Shown here one piece after another: positions 968 to 15,547 of a stretch of DNA of 64,000 nt. The stretch is taken from assembly GCA_002256995.1 (NCBI GenBank), contig NCGX01000018.1:36057-100056 (forward strand). Direction: 5' to 3'. The notes beneath the pieces are model-generated. The model had not been told where the DNA came from, made no database searches, and saw only the letters and a list, made by a program, of their open reading frames with translations. The stretch comes from Hydrogenophilales bacterium 16-64-40 (GTDB lineage: Bacteria; Pseudomonadota; Gammaproteobacteria; Burkholderiales; Thiobacillaceae). How positions within the stretch are numbered: the first letter of the stretch is position 1; the number at the start of each line of letters is the position of its first letter. Both the position numbers and the translations under genes were made by a program.

Positions 968-1609
968 ATGAAAACCCTATTGGCCGACGACCACCCGCTG
1001 ATGCGCGAGGGGGTACGGCAGGTCTTGTCGCAGCTGACCCCGCCGGTCGAGATCATCGACGCCCACGATTACCCCAGCCTGTTTGCGCAGGCCGCCCTGC
1101 ATGCCGACCTCGACCTGGCGCTGGTGGACCTGAACATGCCGGGTTTCGCCGGCATGCAGGGCATCACGCAGTTCCGCAGCCGCTTTCCCGACATTCCGCT
1201 GGTGGTCTTGTCCGCGTCCGAATCGACGCATGACATGCGCAGCGCGCTGGAAGCCGGGGCGCTCGGCTTCATCCCCAAGGCCGCCTCCACCACGGTGATG
1301 CTGGCCGCGTTGCGGCAGGTCCTGGCGGGCAACCTCTACGTGCCGGCCAGCCTCGGCGACAACCAAGGCGACCCGCATCCAGCCCCCCCCGCGGCCCTTA
1401 CCGCCCTGCTGCACAGCGGACTGACGGCGCGCCAGCTTGAAGTCGCGCGCCTGCTGGCACAAGGCTGTGCCAACAAGGCCATCGCCGGCATGCTGGTCAT
1501 GTCGGAAAGTACGGTGAAAGTTCACATTGCCGCGATCTTTCGTGTCTTTGGCGTCACCAACCGCACCGAAGCCGTGCTCGAGATCCAGCGGTTGATGCAG
1601 AAACCGTAA
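968..1609 (+). CDS. NarL/FixJ-type response regulator
   Basis: 213 residues: an N-terminal receiver domain (acidic DDH at 7-9, phospho-acceptor D54 in LVDLNMPG, conserved lysine in FIPKAAS) and a C-terminal LuxR-type helix-turn-helix (LTARQLEVARLLAQG, then SESTVKVHIAAIF). It is a DNA-binding transcription factor activated by phosphorylation. The histidine kinase gene begins 10 nt after the stop codon, so the two form a cotranscribed pair. The target genes cannot be told from the sequence. Confidence 0.9.
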   Translation: MKTLLADDHPLMREGVRQVLSQLTPPVEIIDAHDYPSLFAQAALHADLDLALVDLNMPGFAGMQGITQFRSRFPDIPLVVLSASESTHDMRSALEAGALGFIPKAASTTVMLAALRQVLAGNLYVPASLGDNQGDPHPAPPAALTALLHSGLTARQLEVARLLAQGCANKAIAGMLVMSESTVKVHIAAIFRVFGVTNRTEAVLEIQRLMQKP

Positions 1610-1619
1610 GCGTCCCCCC

Positions 1620-3506
1620 ATGCTCGCCCAGCTCGACCGGCTATCACCTTCCAGCATCCGCAGCCGCATGCTGCTGATTGCACTGCTGCCCGCCGTGCTG
1701 ATCGAATTCGGCTTGGTGGCCTATTTCACCTCGCAAACGCTCGGCGCCGCCGAAGACGCCATGCAGGCGCGTGCCGTCCACGCCGCCCGACATCTGGCGG
1801 ACACCCTGCCGTACGCGCTGGTCAGCGGCGACACCGCGCAGATGAATGCGCTGCTCAAAACCGAGGCCGACACCAACCGGCTGTCCTATGCCCGCGTCAC
1901 CGATGGCGGCGGGCGGCTGCTCGCCAGCACCGGCGACACCCTGCACGCAGCCGTTCTGGCCGACCATCACCGGCAACGCATCGAGATTCGCCTGCCCGCA
2001 GCCGACGCTGCCCGCGTCGTGCCCGTCGACGGCCCCTTGGGTCGCGCGGAAGTCGGCGTATCGCGTGACCAGATCAGCAGCCTCAAGCGCAACATGCTGA
2101 TCCACGCAGCCATGCTGATGCTGGCGGCACTGCTGCTGACCGGCGCGCTGGCATGGCGCCTGTCCAGGCACCTGGCTGGGCAGCTGCGGCATGTCGGACA
2201 GGTGGTGGGGCGGCTCGCGAGCCACGACCTCACGGCACGCGCGCAATTGGCGCCGGCGGGCGAGGTCGGCGCGCTGGCCGCAGGGGTGAACACCATGGCC
2301 GAGGCCCTGCAGGCGCATCGGGGCGAACTGGAGCAGCGCATCCGCGAGGCCACCGCCCACCTCGCCGCGAAAAAGGACATGGCCGAGCGCGCCCATCACG
2401 CCAGGTCGCGCTTTTTTGCCGCCGCCAGCCATGACCTGCGGCAGCCGCTGCACGCGCTGTCGCTGTTCGTCGCCGCGCTGAAGGCGCGCAACCAGCAGAC
2501 CGAAGCGCAAACCCTGATTGAAAACATCGAAGCCTCCACCGCGGCATTGGAACTGCTGTTCAACGCGCTGCTGGATATTTCGCGGCTGGATGCAGGCACC
2601 ATCGAAGTTCATCCGGTGCACTTCCCGCTGCAGAAGATGCTGTGCGACCTCGAACAGCAGTTCGGCGCGGTGGCGGCAGAGCGGCGCCTGCGGCTGCGCT
2701 TTCGCCCCTGCGACATCACGCTTTACAGCGACCCGCTGCTGATCGAACGCATCATGGTCAACCTGATCGCCAACGCCATCCGCTATACCGACGACGGCGG
2801 CGTGCTGGTCGCCTGCCGCCGCCGCGGCCGCATGGTGCGCCTCAGCGTGATCGACACCGGGCGCGGCATTCCGCCGGATCAGCAGGAAAGCGTGTTCCAC
2901 GAATTCGTCCAGCTGCACAATCCGGCGCGCGACCGCAGCAAGGGCCTGGGGCTCGGGCTCGCCATCGTGTCGCGCTTGGCGCGGCTGCTCGGGCACCGGG
3001 TGGATTTGCGCTCGCACCCGGACCGCGGCTCGATGTTCAGCCTCGACGTGCCGTGCGGCGACGCCAGCCTGATCCGGCCGCCCGCGCCCGCCAGCGCGCC
3101 GGGGCAGATTCCGGCCGATGCCCTCGTGCTGCTGGTCGACGACGAAAGCGCGATCCTGCGCGGCATGGCCGAACTGTTCGACAACTGGAACATCGACCTC
3201 GTCACCGCCCGCAGCGCAAACGAAGCCGTGCAATGGCTCGACAGCCTCGGCCGCGTGCCCGACGTCATCGTGTCGGATTTCCGCCTGCCAGACGACACCG
3301 ACGGCATCGAAGTCATCACCCGCCTGCGGCAGAAATTCGGCCGCGACATTCCGGCCATCCTGGTCACCGGCGACACCGCCCCCGACACCATCCTGCGCAT
3401 CAGCCAGGCCGGTTTCCCGCTGCTGCACAAGCCGCTGCGCCCCGCCAAGCTGCGCGCCCTGCTCACCCACCTGATCCTGCAGGCGCGCGCCGTTGCCATG
3501 GGATAA
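1620..3506 (+). CDS. Hybrid sensor histidine kinase with C-terminal receiver domain
   Basis: 628 residues. Membrane segments at about 17-37 and 159-180 flank a ~120-residue periplasmic sensor region. A HAMP linker, a coiled segment and the HisKA motif ASHDLRQPLHAL (phospho-histidine H271) follow. The ATPase domain has NLIANAIRYT, DTGRGIP and GLGLGLAIV. The C-terminal receiver domain has VDDE and the acceptor D553 in VSDFRLPDD. The protein phosphorylates itself on a sensed signal and probably passes phosphate to the NarL-type regulator encoded 10 nt upstream. The receiver may act as a phosphate sink. The ligand of the periplasmic region is unknown. Confidence 0.9.
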   Translation: MLAQLDRLSPSSIRSRMLLIALLPAVLIEFGLVAYFTSQTLGAAEDAMQARAVHAARHLADTLPYALVSGDTAQMNALLKTEADTNRLSYARVTDGGGRLLASTGDTLHAAVLADHHRQRIEIRLPAADAARVVPVDGPLGRAEVGVSRDQISSLKRNMLIHAAMLMLAALLLTGALAWRLSRHLAGQLRHVGQVVGRLASHDLTARAQLAPAGEVGALAAGVNTMAEALQAHRGELEQRIREATAHLAAKKDMAERAHHARSRFFAAASHDLRQPLHALSLFVAALKARNQQTEAQTLIENIEASTAALELLFNALLDISRLDAGTIEVHPVHFPLQKMLCDLEQQFGAVAAERRLRLRFRPCDITLYSDPLLIERIMVNLIANAIRYTDDGGVLVACRRRGRMVRLSVIDTGRGIPPDQQESVFHEFVQLHNPARDRSKGLGLGLAIVSRLARLLGHRVDLRSHPDRGSMFSLDVPCGDASLIRPPAPASAPGQIPADALVLLVDDESAILRGMAELFDNWNIDLVTARSANEAVQWLDSLGRVPDVIVSDFRLPDDTDGIEVITRLRQKFGRDIPAILVTGDTAPDTILRISQAGFPLLHKPLRPAKLRALLTHLILQARAVAMG

Positions 3507-3579
3507 TGCCGTTTCGGTGAGGCGTGACGCGTAAGGGGTAAAGAGCCGCGATTGCGGCGCACCTCTTTCCTCGGCCCCG

Positions 3580-3609
3580 CCCCTAACCCCCAACCCCTAA
3601 CCCCTCTCC
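3580..3609. repeat. C-rich CCCTAAC tandem motif in mpl leader
   Basis: Immediately upstream of the mpl start lies a run of CCCCTAACCC-like units (three imperfect copies). It follows a short hairpin CCGC-gatt-GCGG at about 3548-3559. A related CCCTA-rich spacer separates cbbL and cbbS near 56895-56985. I see no ribosome site of normal strength between this tract and the ATG. Function unknown. Confidence 0.4.
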
Positions 3610-3616
3610 TTACACC

Positions 3617-5017
3617 ATGCACCTCCACATCCTCGGCATCTGCGGCACCTTCATGGGCGGACTCGCCGCCATTGCCCGCAACGCGGGCCACACCGTCACC
3701 GGTTGCGACGCCAACGTCTACCCGCCGATGTCCGACCAGTTGCGCGCCCTCGGCATCGAACTGACCGAGGGTTGGGACGCCAGCCAGGCCAACATCGGCG
3801 CCGACATTTTCGTCGTCGGCAACGTCGTCACCCGCGGCAACCCGCTGATGGAAGCCATCCTCGAGCGCGGCCTGCCCTACACGTCCGGCCCGCAGTGGCT
3901 GGCCGACAACGTGCTGCGGGACAAATGGGTATTGGCGGTGGCCGGCACCCACGGCAAGACCACCACTGCTGCCATGCTGGCGTGGATTCTCGACGATGCG
4001 CGCATGCGCCCCGGTTTTTTGATCGGCGGCATCCCGCAGAACTTCGGCCTGTCCGCACGCCTCACCGACAGTCCCTTCTTCGTCATCGAGGCCGACGAAT
4101 ACGACACCGCCTTCTTCGACAAGCGCTCCAAGTTCGTCCACTACCGCCCGCGCAGCGTCATCCTCAACAACCTCGAATACGACCACGCCGACATCTTCCC
4201 CGACCTCGCCGCCATCGAAACCCAATTCCATCACCTGGTGCGAACCGTTCCCGGAAACGGCCTCATCGTCGCCAATGGCACCGACACCAACCTCGACCAC
4301 GTATTCGAGCGCGGCCTGTGGACCCCGGTCGAGCGCTTCGGCGGCTTGAGCGGCTGGACCGCTGGCGACGTCGATCCGAACGGCCACTTCGATGTTTTCT
4401 TCGACGGCGCATTGCAGGGTCGCGTGACGTGGACGCTGATGGGTGGGCACAACCGCATGAACGCCCTCGCCTCGATTGCCGCCGCGCGTCACGCCGGCGT
4501 GCCCGCCGCGGTCGCGATCGATGCCCTGGCTCGCTTCGAAAACGTCAAGCGCCGCATGGAAATCCGCGGCGCCGTCCACGACATCACCGTCTACGACGAC
4601 TTCGCCCACCATCCCACCGCAATCACCACCACCGTCGAAGGCCTGCGGGCGAAAGTCGGGAAAGCGCGCATCCTCGCCGTGCTGGAGCCGCGCTCCAACA
4701 CCATGAAACTCGGCGTCATGAAAGCCGCGCTGCCCGTGAGCCTCGCCGGCGCCGACCTCGTCTACTGCTATGGCGCCAACCTCGGCTGGGATGCCGCCGA
4801 GGCGCTGGCTCCGCTGGGCGATAAGGCGCGCGTGTTCGACGATCTCGACAAACTGGTCAGCCAACTCGTCAAAGACACCCGCTCCGGCGACCACGTGCTG
4901 ATGATGAGCAACGGGGGGTTTGGGGGAATTCACGCCAAGCTGCTGGATGCGCTGCATCATCACTATCACGAGGATATTGTGCTGACGCCGATGCATCGGT
5001 ATGGGGGGTATGCGTAA
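3617..5017 (+). CDS. mpl: UDP-N-acetylmuramate:L-Ala-gamma-D-Glu-meso-DAP ligase
   Basis: 466 residues of the Mur ligase family. The N-terminus HLHILGICGTFMGGLA binds the UDP-sugar, AGTHGKTTT is the ATP loop, and NLEYDHADIF plus HHPTAI are characteristic. Mpl reattaches the tripeptide released from old murein to UDP-MurNAc, recycling peptidoglycan in the cytoplasm. The length matches the family (about 450-460). The gene stands alone; the inverted-repeat cassette begins 10 nt after its stop codon. The long antisense reading frames over it are shadows of its GC-rich codons. Confidence 0.95.
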   Translation: MHLHILGICGTFMGGLAAIARNAGHTVTGCDANVYPPMSDQLRALGIELTEGWDASQANIGADIFVVGNVVTRGNPLMEAILERGLPYTSGPQWLADNVLRDKWVLAVAGTHGKTTTAAMLAWILDDARMRPGFLIGGIPQNFGLSARLTDSPFFVIEADEYDTAFFDKRSKFVHYRPRSVILNNLEYDHADIFPDLAAIETQFHHLVRTVPGNGLIVANGTDTNLDHVFERGLWTPVERFGGLSGWTAGDVDPNGHFDVFFDGALQGRVTWTLMGGHNRMNALASIAAARHAGVPAAVAIDALARFENVKRRMEIRGAVHDITVYDDFAHHPTAITTTVEGLRAKVGKARILAVLEPRSNTMKLGVMKAALPVSLAGADLVYCYGANLGWDAAEALAPLGDKARVFDDLDKLVSQLVKDTRSGDHVLMMSNGGFGGIHAKLLDALHHHYHEDIVLTPMHRYGGYA

Positions 5018-5027
5018 GGGGGAACGC

Positions 5028-5372
5028 CGTCATTGCGAGGCGTGCAGCGACGAAGCAATCCAGTCTGTGATTAGGCGCGAAGCATGACCGAGTAGTTAGC
5101 GCTTTCGCAGGACTGCTGACCGTTGGCCGGGGGTAGCCCGGCGGCTAGTTACTTTTCTTGTCTCGCCAAGAAAAGTAACCAAATGAAGGCGACCCCGACA
5201 TCCCCGAATTCCCGGAAATCGAGCCTGCCGGACGGGCGGCGAAGAACTCGCCCTGCCTTGCTGTTTTTAATTTGGTTTTTTGTGGGCGGGGCTCAAATAC
5301 CTTCGCCGCTGATCCGCCCGGCAGGCTCGATTTCCGGCGGGTCTGTGAGGGGATGAAAGTCAAAACCAGGGC
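5028..5372 (-). repeat. Left inverted copy of a ~340 bp structured intergenic repeat
   Basis: This stretch is the reverse complement of 6757-7092 over nearly its whole length. The outer end is a CGTCATTGCGAGG REP-like unit. Next comes GGCGCGAAG...TAGTTAG...GCTGACCGTTGGCCGGGGG. Then a perfect hairpin has GTTACTTTTCTTG (5148-5160) pairing with 5167-5179 across a 6-nt loop. The inner part is a long palindrome whose arms 5213-5232 and about 5318-5337 are perfect reverse complements. A third, partial relative lies at 15224-15487. Short readings inside it are not genes. It looks like a dispersed, MITE- or REP-like element without its own coding capacity. Confidence 0.85.
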
Positions 5373-5411
5373 GGCAATGACTGCCGAGACATTATTTTTG
5401 TGGGCGATCAA

Positions 5412-6686
5412 ATGACATCAACACATAAAGCCTTAAAGGAAATCGTGCGAACTGTCCGTCGTTATCGAGAAATAATTCTTGGGGGACTACTGCGCATCGT
5501 TACCGTTTTCGCTGGCATTGCGATGTTTCTTGCACTAACACACTACCTTCCAATCGATGTGCCGCTATCGGATCTAGAGAGTTCTATCCAGTTGTTATCG
5601 CAGATTCTTGCGATGGTGGTCGGTGTCTTGTTGATCGGAACAACTGTTAGCCTAAATTCTTATGAAGGATCTGCAACCATAAATTCAATTCAGATTGAAA
5701 TTGATAAGGCAATCACCCCACTATTAGACCGGCTCTTTTCAGGGGGTCGCCGAGCACACAAGATCACCCGCCGCTCATTCCTCAACTCTGCGCTAAGTCG
5801 CCCCGCTATTGAAGAACTACAGTTCTTCAATCCGGACGCACAGCCAGATGGTCAATGGTTTATATATCGCCCAAACTGGGATGGCGTTTGGTACCAAGTT
5901 TTCAATTCACCTTTCGTCAATTCATCAGTGACAGAGGAGCGATCTCACCAAGTTCAGGCAGTTCACGAGGCTGCCATTTGCGCCTACACCGTGCTCAAAT
6001 CCATAGCAGATTTTCAGCAGTCTAATTGCGCGCTATTAACAAAGATACACGGAACCAATGGCTCTCGCGGCTTTCTAGAGCGATTTGCGAAGCACGTGAG
6101 CAATAACGGGATAAGCCTTCCTTCCAAGGCAACTCTTGCCCACGTGAAGTCAGTAATTGCCTTGGCTATAGAGTCTCAACACTATATGAGAGAAGAGTTT
6201 GTTGAGCATTCTGAAAACGTGGCTTGGGAACCGCATGTACTTACAAAGTTCCAGCTTGGATTCAGTGAATACGTTGTTTCGATGATTCACTTTGTTTTCA
6301 AGCTACAGATGCTTCGCTTAGCCAATGTAGATCAACGTTGCCCCGGCGTAACCGAACGTTTCGAAAGCAAAACGAAAAAGAAACTATTCCTGAAAGAGCT
6401 TAACGAGGTACAGGAAGAACTAACGGCAATTAAGAAAAAAATCGTATCAGCGCACGGAGCAGCAAGTTACTTCCACTCTATTAAAAAAATGTCTGCACTC
6501 GGCGTCGGCATAGCGTTGGTCGTACTAATTGCGTTATTGGCCGGATGGCCATTTCTGAAATACACGACAGATGCATCCATACGGATTCTCGGCTTTGCAA
6601 CGCTTTACGCCACCGGGATCGCTGCTCTCGTAGAAAGCTCATGGTTCCTCGGCCGCCTTCTTTGGAAGCGCCGTGCGGCTAGCTAA
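5412..6686 (+). CDS. AT-rich membrane protein of unknown function inside an inverted-repeat cassette
   Basis: I do not recognise the family. From ATG 5412 the product is 424 residues; GTG 5400 would add four, and neither start has a clear ribosome site. Two membrane segments lie near the N-terminus (about 21-44 and 60-81) and two at the C-terminus (about 361-383 and 392-414). Between them is a ~280-residue soluble region with a lysine/glutamate-rich helical stretch before the third segment. Base composition is strikingly AT-rich, with AAA, TTA and ATA codons, unlike every other gene here. The gene sits alone between inverted copies of a repeat, which suggests acquisition by transfer. The topology resembles some accessory or defence membrane effectors, but nothing in the sequence proves that role. 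Confidence 0.75.
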   Translation: MTSTHKALKEIVRTVRRYREIILGGLLRIVTVFAGIAMFLALTHYLPIDVPLSDLESSIQLLSQILAMVVGVLLIGTTVSLNSYEGSATINSIQIEIDKAITPLLDRLFSGGRRAHKITRRSFLNSALSRPAIEELQFFNPDAQPDGQWFIYRPNWDGVWYQVFNSPFVNSSVTEERSHQVQAVHEAAICAYTVLKSIADFQQSNCALLTKIHGTNGSRGFLERFAKHVSNNGISLPSKATLAHVKSVIALAIESQHYMREEFVEHSENVAWEPHVLTKFQLGFSEYVVSMIHFVFKLQMLRLANVDQRCPGVTERFESKTKKKLFLKELNEVQEELTAIKKKIVSAHGAASYFHSIKKMSALGVGIALVVLIALLAGWPFLKYTTDASIRILGFATLYATGIAALVESSWFLGRLLWKRRAAS

Positions 6687-6756
6687 CATAAGGCGCTGAA
6701 CATTGCACCGAATCTGCGTCTCAACACAAGCACTCAAACGGCCCCGTCAGCACCAT

Positions 6757-7092
6757 CCCTGGTTTTGACTTTCTTCCCCTTACAGACCCGCCGAAGATCA
6801 AGTGCGTCGGGTGGATCAGCGGCAAAGGTGTCTGAGCCCCGCTCACAAATTAATTAACACTACAAAAGCGGGGCGAGTTCTTTGCCGCCCACCCGACGCG
6901 CTTGATCTTCGGGAATTCGGGGATGTTGGGGGCGCCTTCTTTTGGTTACTTTTCTTGGCGAGACAAGAAAAGTAACTAGCCGCCGGGCTACCCCCGGCCA
7001 ACGGTCAGCCGCCCCGCGAAGTCACTAACTATTCAGTCGCACTTCGCGCCAACCCTCAAACTTGGATTACTTCGCTGCGCTCGCAATGACGG
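6757..7092 (+). repeat. Right inverted copy of the ~340 bp structured repeat
   Basis: It mirrors 5028-5372. The order is a GGTTTTGACTTTCTTCCCC end, a long palindrome around 6790-6915 (arms near GAAGATCAAG and CTTGATCTTC), a perfect 13-bp hairpin (6945-6957 with 6964-6976, 6-nt loop), the CCCCCGGCCAACGGTCAGC block, and an outer GCTCGCAATGACGG unit at about 7079-7092. The orientation is opposite to the left copy, so the AT-rich gene lies between inverted arms. The palindrome arms differ in sequence from the left copy yet still pair, suggesting that the structure is what is kept. Confidence 0.85.
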
Positions 7093-7119
7093 ACAAGGCC
7101 GGTCGCAGCGAACCGCGAA

Positions 7120-7563
7120 TCAATACATCTTGTACGGCAAAAACTTCCCATTCAACACAATCTTCACCCGATCCCCCTTCGGGTCCTCCACCCGCGAAAT
7201 ATCCATCGAAAAATCGATCGCGCTCATGATCCCATCGCCGAACTCCTCGTGGATCAGCGACTTGATGGTGATGCCATACACCATGATCAGCTCATAGAAG
7301 CGGTAGATCAGCGGGTCGGTCGGAACGGCGGAAGGCAGGCTGCCCTTGTACGGCACCATCTGCAACTGGTCGACGGCTTCGGCCGGCAGGCCGAGCATCT
7401 TGCCGACGGTGGTGGCCTGCTTCTTGTCGAGCGTCATTTGCCCCAGCAGTGCGGCGGTCGTCCATTCCTTGCTCTGGCCGACTTTCCTTGCGATGTCGGC
7501 CCACTTGAGGCCCTTCTTGTGTTTGGCGGCGAGGATGAGGTCGGTGACTTCGGTGCGGGTCAT
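7120..7563 (-). CDS. cynS: Cyanate hydratase (cyanase)
   Basis: 147 residues with an N-terminal helix-turn-helix-like domain and the C-terminal cyanase domain. The catalytic triad is visible with the correct spacing: R88 and E91 in YRFYELI, and S114 in GIMSAID. The enzyme converts cyanate and bicarbonate to ammonia and two CO2 as a cytoplasmic decamer. It is the last gene of a minus-strand set with an ABC transporter (12 nt after the ATPase gene), which supports cyanate uptake and detoxification or use as a nitrogen source. Both products feed autotrophic metabolism. Confidence 0.96.
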   Translation of the reverse strand: MTRTEVTDLILAAKHKKGLKWADIARKVGQSKEWTTAALLGQMTLDKKQATTVGKMLGLPAEAVDQLQMVPYKGSLPSAVPTDPLIYRFYELIMVYGITIKSLIHEEFGDGIMSAIDFSMDISRVEDPKGDRVKIVLNGKFLPYKMY

Positions 7564-15125: not shown

Positions 15126-15547
15126 CTCGCGTAAGACGTGCTGGGCAGGCCGTCAATCCGCGTGGCCGCATTGCGCTGAATATGCGGCGCATCACTGCAT
15201 ACGGACCGCCCCGTTATCGCTAACCTGGTTTTGGCTTTCTTCCCCTTACAGGCCCGCCGAAGATCAAGCGCGTCGGGTGGATCAGCGGCAAAGGTGTTTG
15301 AGCCCCGCCCACAAAAAACAAAATCAAAACAACCAAGGCGGGGCGAGTTCTTTGCCGCCCACCCGACGCGCTTGATCTTCGGGAATTCGGGACTGTCGGG
15401 GTCGCCTTTTCTTTGGTTACTTTCTTTTGGCGAAGCAAAAGAAAGTAACTTGCCGCCGGGCAACCCCCGGCCAACGCTCAGCAGTCCTGTGAAAAACTGG
15501 CCATTGCCAAATTTCAGGAATCCCACCCGCCCCGGTAAAATCCGGGA
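15126..15547. other. Gene-free 422 bp stretch holding the third repeat copy
   Basis: After the rubredoxin stop there is about 100 bp of unremarkable sequence, then the structured repeat (15224-15487), then 60 bp leading to the esterase ATG. Apparent reading frames here translate the repeat and are not credible genes. Confidence 0.7.
15224..15487 (+). repeat. Third copy of the structured intergenic repeat
   Basis: It has the same orientation and block order as 6757-7008: a GGTTTTGGCTTTCTTCCCC end, then a long palindrome with 24-bp perfect arms (15257-15280 and 15359-15382). The pairing continues inward through GCGGCAAAG and GGCGGGGC blocks. Next comes a second hairpin with a 14-bp perfect stem (15416-15429 with 15436-15449), then CCCCCGGCCAACGCTCAGC. 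It lacks the outer REP-like end seen at the cassette. Confidence 0.85.

Follow-up and report, generated by a model that had tools for sequence, protein, structure and literature searches.

The window, by which is meant the whole stretch of 64,000 nt that was analysed, is from a genome that probably belongs to the genus Thiobacillus. Between two genes that we take to be mpl and cynS, the names being carried over from the initial annotation, lies an AT-rich gene enclosed by two long inverted repeats, here called arms. The features are as follows.

3617 to 5017, + strand: mpl, an ORF; the conserved gene upstream of the candidate docking site
5028 to 5372, + strand: left arm, with its core from about 5104 and hairpins at 5148-5179 and 5212-5337 (blastn, and covariation over 50 arms)
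5028 to 5063, + strand: outer CGTC-tagged, palindrome-like unit of the left arm, read in the sequence
5373 to 5381, + strand: inner edge of the left arm, up to the end of identity with the locus in genome G068
5382 to 6700, + strand: segment swapped in one piece, from comparison with the corresponding site of G068
5412 to 6686, + strand: AT-rich cargo gene of no known family, 424 aa (428 from the GTG at 5400), with membrane segments near both ends
6701 to 6756, − strand: inner edge of the 3′ arm, a CGCAACACAAGCACTCAAACC-type sequence that is similar in cassettes at several sites
6757 to 7092, − strand: right arm, an inverted copy with an outer CGTC-tagged unit
7120 to 7563, − strand: cynS, an ORF, convergent and downstream
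15224 to 15494, − strand: solo arm of the same family without cargo, between rubredoxin-like and esterase-like genes (likeness by eye)

The initial annotation had described the gene at 5412-6686 as AT-rich and as lying between inverted repeats of about 340 bp that each end in a CGTCATTGCGAG unit, and this is what was found. The left arm (5028-5372) aligns with 7091-6757 at 81% identity over its whole length (blastn), a CGTCATTGCGAG unit is present at the outer end of each arm, and GC falls from about 0.64 to 0.43-0.48 across the cargo gene (46.7% for the ORF). Two complementary blocks make up most of the match, 5062-5272 with 6852-7062 (211 nt, 83%) and 5279-5371 with 6757-6849 (93 nt, 85%). 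Each arm is layered, with the outer CGTC unit followed by a GCCGGGGGTAGCCCGGC mini-hairpin, a 32-nt hairpin (GTTACTTTTCTTG...CAAGAAAAGTAAC) and a long hairpin (5212-5337 on the left). The 32-nt hairpin has 2 matches in the 64 kb at up to 3 mismatches and none in 100 shuffles, and the outer unit alone has five further matches in the same genome. The target-site duplication that had been suggested as a check, at 5020-5028 and 7092-7100, was not visible by eye.

The cargo ORF starts at 5400 (GTG) or 5412 (ATG) and ends at 6686. Hydropathy gives three clear membrane stretches in the product (residues 20-50, 55-84 and 356-386), so that three of the four segments previously predicted are retained and the fourth is possible only. 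Profile searches returned sub-threshold matches only (Pfam, E 0.006; PADLOC, E 0.012, weakly to RdrB; PDB, E 0.37) and NCBIfam gave no match; apart from the weak RdrB match, no recognised defence domain of known anti-phage systems was detected. A structure model built from the single sequence was unusable (mean pLDDT 42). Relatives of the protein were found in 0 of 59 and 0 of 398 other genomes, and peptide patterns revealed none in a wider collection of genome contigs. The situation that the initial annotation had named as contrary to its reading, related genomes all carrying the same gene with the same GC and no repeats, is thus not what is seen, since the gene is in none of the other genomes searched. 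On the reading favoured below, the gene would encode an accessory membrane protein of unrecognised family, exchangeable like the others, and a role in protection or competition would fit part of the cargo genes in the sister slots described below.

The arms conserve their ability to fold, as DNA or RNA, by compensatory change. In an alignment of 50 arms, 97.6% of positions in the 56 consensus pairs are paired, and 16 pairs have changed on both sides. Double-sided changes fill 144 cells, compared with 50 in shuffles (0 of 500 reach 144) and 4-9 when the structure is slid, with shuffles that ignore relatedness and a structure that came from the same alignment. Some positions have switched in many sequences (C-G in 24 and U-A in 21, for example), and the covariation term of RNAalifold is small (-2.6 of -59 kcal/mol). 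Rfam contained nothing near its gathering score for the arm.

Within its own genome the arm query gave 20 matches, several of which are parts of one arm; they include two other convergent pairs (C64:92524-93951 and C26:7997-9288) as well as solo arms. An arm match at E 1e-10 or better is present in 55 of 56 genus genomes, in a search that scored 12 candidates per genome and took elements among the matches listed. Records of Polaromonas, Gallionella, Ferrigenium and Sideroxydans carry the same arm pattern, giving at least 119 loci together with the genus records. Among those listed are 40 convergent pairs (41 with that of the window), at least five of which are loci already fetched. In 12 of 14 Polaromonas pairs the core spacing is under 600 nt and the pairs look empty. 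Six of the 14 (L129, L137, L181, L185, L192 and L193) lie, by eye, between the same two tandem transporter genes in several species, suggesting that shared sites may exist outside Thiobacillus too. A strict form of the pattern, which misses many arms of the genus, was found in 9 of 399 evenly drawn genomes from across the order (its own and three others of its genus included), and the reversed control pattern in 0. Searches by pattern for arms on plasmids and phages gave one partial Variovorax record, 0 phage records and one IMG/VR contig. The last, L317, is 5577 bases long with the pattern at 1066-1096, and may be either a piece of bacterial DNA or a copy carried by a phage.

From 94 arm-bearing loci of the genus, 97 elements were obtained as best-scoring matches, leaving aside mpl loci without arms as well as L076 and L087, where the arm is at a contig end. 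They comprise 49 convergent pairs, 48 solo arms (a count that includes arms cut by contig ends), no divergent pair and one tandem case (L238). The interiors of the 49 pairs are bimodal, with 17 shorter than 150 nt (one of them collapsed), two of 191 and 263 nt, and 30 of 349-1384 nt. Mean GC in the 30 long interiors is 47.5%, against 63.7% in the flanks, and it is lower than the flanks in all 30 (Wilcoxon p 1.9e-9). By eye, several empty interiors are alike across sites, with a similar short core at two sites. Two collapsed forms (L080 and L091) each fold as one long near-perfect palindrome. The 3.3-kb interior of L226 from Ferrigenium straubiae (1324-4615) contains, by eye, three genes, for DUF6731, for a small membrane-like protein and for an IS110-like transposase, and is perhaps an insertion into a cassette.

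Flank similarity places 87 of the 97 elements in nine groups, the largest of which represent 22, 21 and 15 genomes. Groups were formed by single linkage on the flanks. The first (24 elements) had drawn in two solo arms that lie at the rubredoxin place, and these were relabelled by hand; the third (19 elements in the 15 genomes) is probably a mixture of two or more places. One of the places follows mpl. A counterpart of the C-terminal 166 aa of Mpl was detected at E < 1e-70 in 44 of the 56 genus genomes, and an arm core lies 40-151 nt past the mpl stop codon in 24 of these 44 but was not found in the other 20. The mpl-site lists additionally take in L084 and L089, and in G066 the mpl end (L084) was joined with the cynS end (L070) by inference. 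A readable AT-rich gene occupies 14 of them, while three are empty, two collapsed, one degenerate and four cut by contig ends. The fetched stretches contain cynS in 7 other mpl-site loci.

The 14 readable genes belong to 11 families by our own count and are all co-directional with mpl, an agreement expected by chance about 0.001 of the time over 11 independent choices, and expression from upstream is therefore a plausible constraint. At a second place the arm is at the 3′ end of 14 of 16 genes, and orientation is mixed at other places. No target-site duplication was seen by eye at the mpl sites or the Polaromonas copies, a set that includes no clean same-species empty site. Two mpl loci have unusual structures. 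In L086 (G019) a gene that by eye resembles DNA C5 cytosine methyltransferases lies behind a truncated arm (half arm 323-393), and this larger cargo may have broken the arm. The mpl-cynS region of L100 (G015) has no arm by pattern; it is a strongly folding intergenic sequence with pieces like a worn-down element.

Comparison of mpl-cynS regions in relatives, as proposed in the initial annotation, reveals unrelated genes even in near relatives, and an empty slot in some related species. A 147-nt part of mpl differs by 4.1% between genomes G079 and G005, and the 2765 nt that begin at the right arm are 91% identical; on the left side, where the G005 arm is truncated, identity is 85% over 537 nt. 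One of the two slots carries a gene for a 150-aa hydrophobic protein and the other a gene for a 238-aa protein with a weak trypsin-like match. In the best-resolved comparison, between the window genome and G068, sequences on both sides are 88% identical and identity ends at the inner edges of the arms, so that the swapped part (5382-6700) is the gene plus a few bases, with breakpoints inferred between diverged species represented by one genome each. One cargo family is common to four genomes that are 12-17% apart at mpl. Altogether 72 cargo ORFs fall into 61 families, 59 of them (50 families) from the 97 elements and the other 13 from named loci, two of which duplicate other loci; the ORFs were chosen automatically (at least 75 aa, GC below 0.56), some are spurious or truncated, and L238 is counted twice.

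The arms themselves have a mixed history. Among 136 arms, mean distance is 0.160 for the same site and side in different genomes, 0.161 for different sites in one genome and 0.175 where both differ. For 80 arms the nearest neighbour belongs to a different genome and a different site; 38 have it at their own site and side, 8 at their own site but on the opposite side and 6 at a different site of their own genome, while 4 are nearest to their own partner. Strict clustering by site was considered, as was strict clustering by genome, and neither describes these distances. The distances and nearest neighbours together suggest a mixture of inheritance in place and exchange between places, and the near-equality of 0.161 and 0.160 makes homogenisation within a genome possible as well. 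The closest arms across sites and genomes are 2.0% apart, compared with 8.8% between their genomes over 147 nt of mpl.

The products of the cargo genes are mostly without recognisable domains. Of 30 hand-picked cargo proteins, some of them trimmed to a later start, 7 exceeded the Pfam cut-off, 3 had matches below it only and 20 had none. The positives are HEPN_AbiU2 (twice), a CAP12-PCTIR TIR domain of the Pycsar type, Mrr, NB-ARC (from a gene adjoining a solo arm), DUF6731 and GNAT. Among 46 representative cargoes, 12 PADLOC models were matched by one member each, the best being PDC-S35 at 4e-75. Some sister cargoes are defence families. However, 53 families of flanking genes match 19 PADLOC models, and for this reason no excess of defence genes is claimed for the cargo. 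At E 1e-4, Pfam recognises 11 families in the cargo set and 69 in the flank set.

The feature is real and genus-wide, and looks like a slot of fixed position, bounded by folded repeats, in which one gene at a time can be swapped. The initial annotation had favoured a mobile or recombination-derived cassette that has no transposase. Derivation by recombination and the lack of a transposase both stand, but insertion of an element at this position is not supported; since the arms keep their place in many species while the content changes, a fixed slot is indicated rather than an inserting element. The association of the repeats with accessory genes, also proposed there, was borne out by their varied cargo and by shared flanks that are at odds with random placement.

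The mechanism of exchange we infer from the patterns at the arms and flanks, which are compatible with incorporation by homologous recombination. On balance, 5028-7092 is best regarded as a docking site of fixed position at which whole genes are exchanged, homologous recombination in the arms and flanks being the likeliest route. Two fold-conserved inverted arms would enclose a slot that is either empty or occupied by a single AT-rich gene, and incoming DNA would recombine via the arms and the conserved neighbouring genes, so that the whole gene is swapped and the place unchanged. The arms would serve as portable homology and, as inverted repeats, could also account for the collapsed and empty forms. 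Homologous recombination via arms and neighbours is the most economical engine because no link to a RAYT, an integron or a recurrent recombinase emerged and ComEC is present; no recurrent recombinase or mobility gene travelling with the elements was recognised among the scanned cargo. ComEC exceeds the cut-off in the window genome, but 5 of 14 control genomes also pass, and ComEC alone is no proof of competence. Further points against this reading are the mixed orientation outside the mpl site, the 20 of 44 mpl ends without an arm and the possible homogenisation of arms within a genome. Homologous exchange at fixed sites does not by itself explain the spread of arms to many places, also in Polaromonas and the Gallionellaceae, and the sharp inner boundaries and shared 3′ edge would suit a site-specific enzyme as well.

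Such an enzyme is the basis of a less probable reading, in which a dedicated cassette system recognises the folded arms or their inner edges and adds, excises or exchanges genes one at a time, with integron-like logic at inverted sites. The strong compensatory pairing in the arms, the sharp inner boundary, the short core that by eye is similar in empty forms at two sites and the prevalence of one gene per slot are all in its favour. However, no enzyme of this kind was recognised within the elements or next to them, the only repeat matches near the window genome's three RAYT genes are chance-like ones of 10 nt, and arms persist in solo or collapsed form too. It is rather unlikely that these are permanent single-gene docking ports of a new Betaproteobacteria cassette system, loaded and emptied by a putative dedicated recombination enzyme; if they are, the genus would have, outside integrons, a common stock of exchangeable genes, most of them of unknown kind and some of them defensive. 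Less probable again is a transposon of the MITE type, in which long terminal inverted repeats enclose passenger genes and a transposase acts in trans. Terminal inverted repeats at several places per genome, arms that can be very similar at different sites and the short, empty-looking Polaromonas pairs (12 of 14) would be expected of it, but most fetched places are common to several species, the outer ends vary, target-site duplications were not seen by eye and no transposase family occurs inside, one IS110-like and one rve-bearing ORF being the only candidates. Among the 30 and 46 cargo proteins scanned, no autonomous relative with a transposase between the same repeats was found, only isolated IS pieces. 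RAYT-driven mobility (a REPtron) was also tried for the window genome and rejected, as none of its three Y1_Tnp loci is flanked by repeats, one of the three being cut by a contig end.

The arms could alternatively do no more than terminate transcription or stabilise RNA after genes, with cargo turnover due to ordinary insertion at a hot spot. Their position just after mpl in 24 of 44 genomes (the mpl site alone) agrees with this, and REPs lie mostly downstream of genes (PMC3733652), but the pairs are convergent and never divergent, and 30 of the 49 enclose an AT-rich interior, which makes it improbable. Least credible is that the cargoes are Thiobacillus integron cassettes caught between repeats. 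Integron integrase scores over the cut-off in 38 of the 56 genus genomes, and a typical integron cassette is a single AT-rich gene. Against this, the window genome (68 contigs) has no integrase over the cut-off, and the integron stretches of 14 genomes have no arm match and share with the cargo three DNA matches of 29-33 nt and four related proteins, at 28-30% identity to one place; in the one array examined the attC-like repeats look unrelated to the arms. That the elements are themselves integron cassettes was rejected, as no attC was found at them by similarity or by eye and the window genome is without integrase over the cut-off. The array examined (L297, 1162-9495, an integron stretch of G024) contains several families of attC-like repeats, 61-83 nt in length.

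A docking site for homologous exchange, the favoured reading, invites comparison with several known systems. Integron cassettes likewise carry mostly one AT-rich gene per unit in a fixed orientation, as at the mpl site, whereas here there is no attC-like site by eye and no array, the arms are inverted, and an integrase over the cut-off is lacking in the window genome. TIMEs, MITEs and mobile insertion cassettes insert at new places, with repeats that belong to a known transposon; in the present case most places are common to several genomes and a source transposon was not recognised. They are similar in having inverted repeats around passenger genes without a transposase (PMC10969869, where the Polaromonas JS666 genome paper is cited for MITEs). 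The nearest concept is the minimal mobile element (MME) of Neisseria (PMC3898611, PMC3082526), a kind of element incorporated solely by homologous recombination. Conserved flanks around different whole-gene cassettes, which define an MME, are found at the mpl site, where the downstream gene varies among loci, in a comparison that rests on one genome per species. Unlike in an MME, paired, inverted and fold-conserved arms flank the cassette here, and they recur at several sites and in several genera. The work on MMEs also suggests that palindromic repeats, the neisserial dRS3 arrays or intergenic mosaic elements, promote exchange of adjacent genes. Both they and the arms are intergenic and palindromic, but dRS3, given there as ATTCCC-N8-GGGAAT, is a different sequence, and instead of an array of short units two arms of about 340-390 nt with long hairpins surround one gene.

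A literature search over titles and the starts of abstracts, covering few subscription papers, did not return a description of arms of this kind. As far as these searches show, the novelty lies in long, inverted, fold-conserved arms that enclose one gene as a pair and recur across several sites and genera. The arms can be used to search for single accessory genes, a pool that methods based on names miss. They may also offer a concrete, testable case of single-gene turnover at fixed places without a mobile element, and they open the long-standing question of the role of palindromic intergenic repeats to direct tests.

The outer unit of the arms resembles the CGTC REPs, among which Di Nocera et al. 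(PMC3733652) class dRS3. As described there, these have a CGTC tag, an 8-9 bp stem starting with AT, a loop of 4-5 bases and a CCA tail, and no dedicated transposase is known for them. The outer unit also starts with CGTC followed by AT and ends with CCA, but its outer pairing (ATTGC/GCAAT) is 5 bp with a longer inner part, and the rest of the arm lies outside any REP. At mpl-site loci L060, L064, L065, L066 and L069, another outer palindrome (GTTCGCCCTGAGCTTGTCGAAGGGC type) replaces or accompanies the CGTC unit in some arms, so that the outer ends of the arms look like exchangeable modules.
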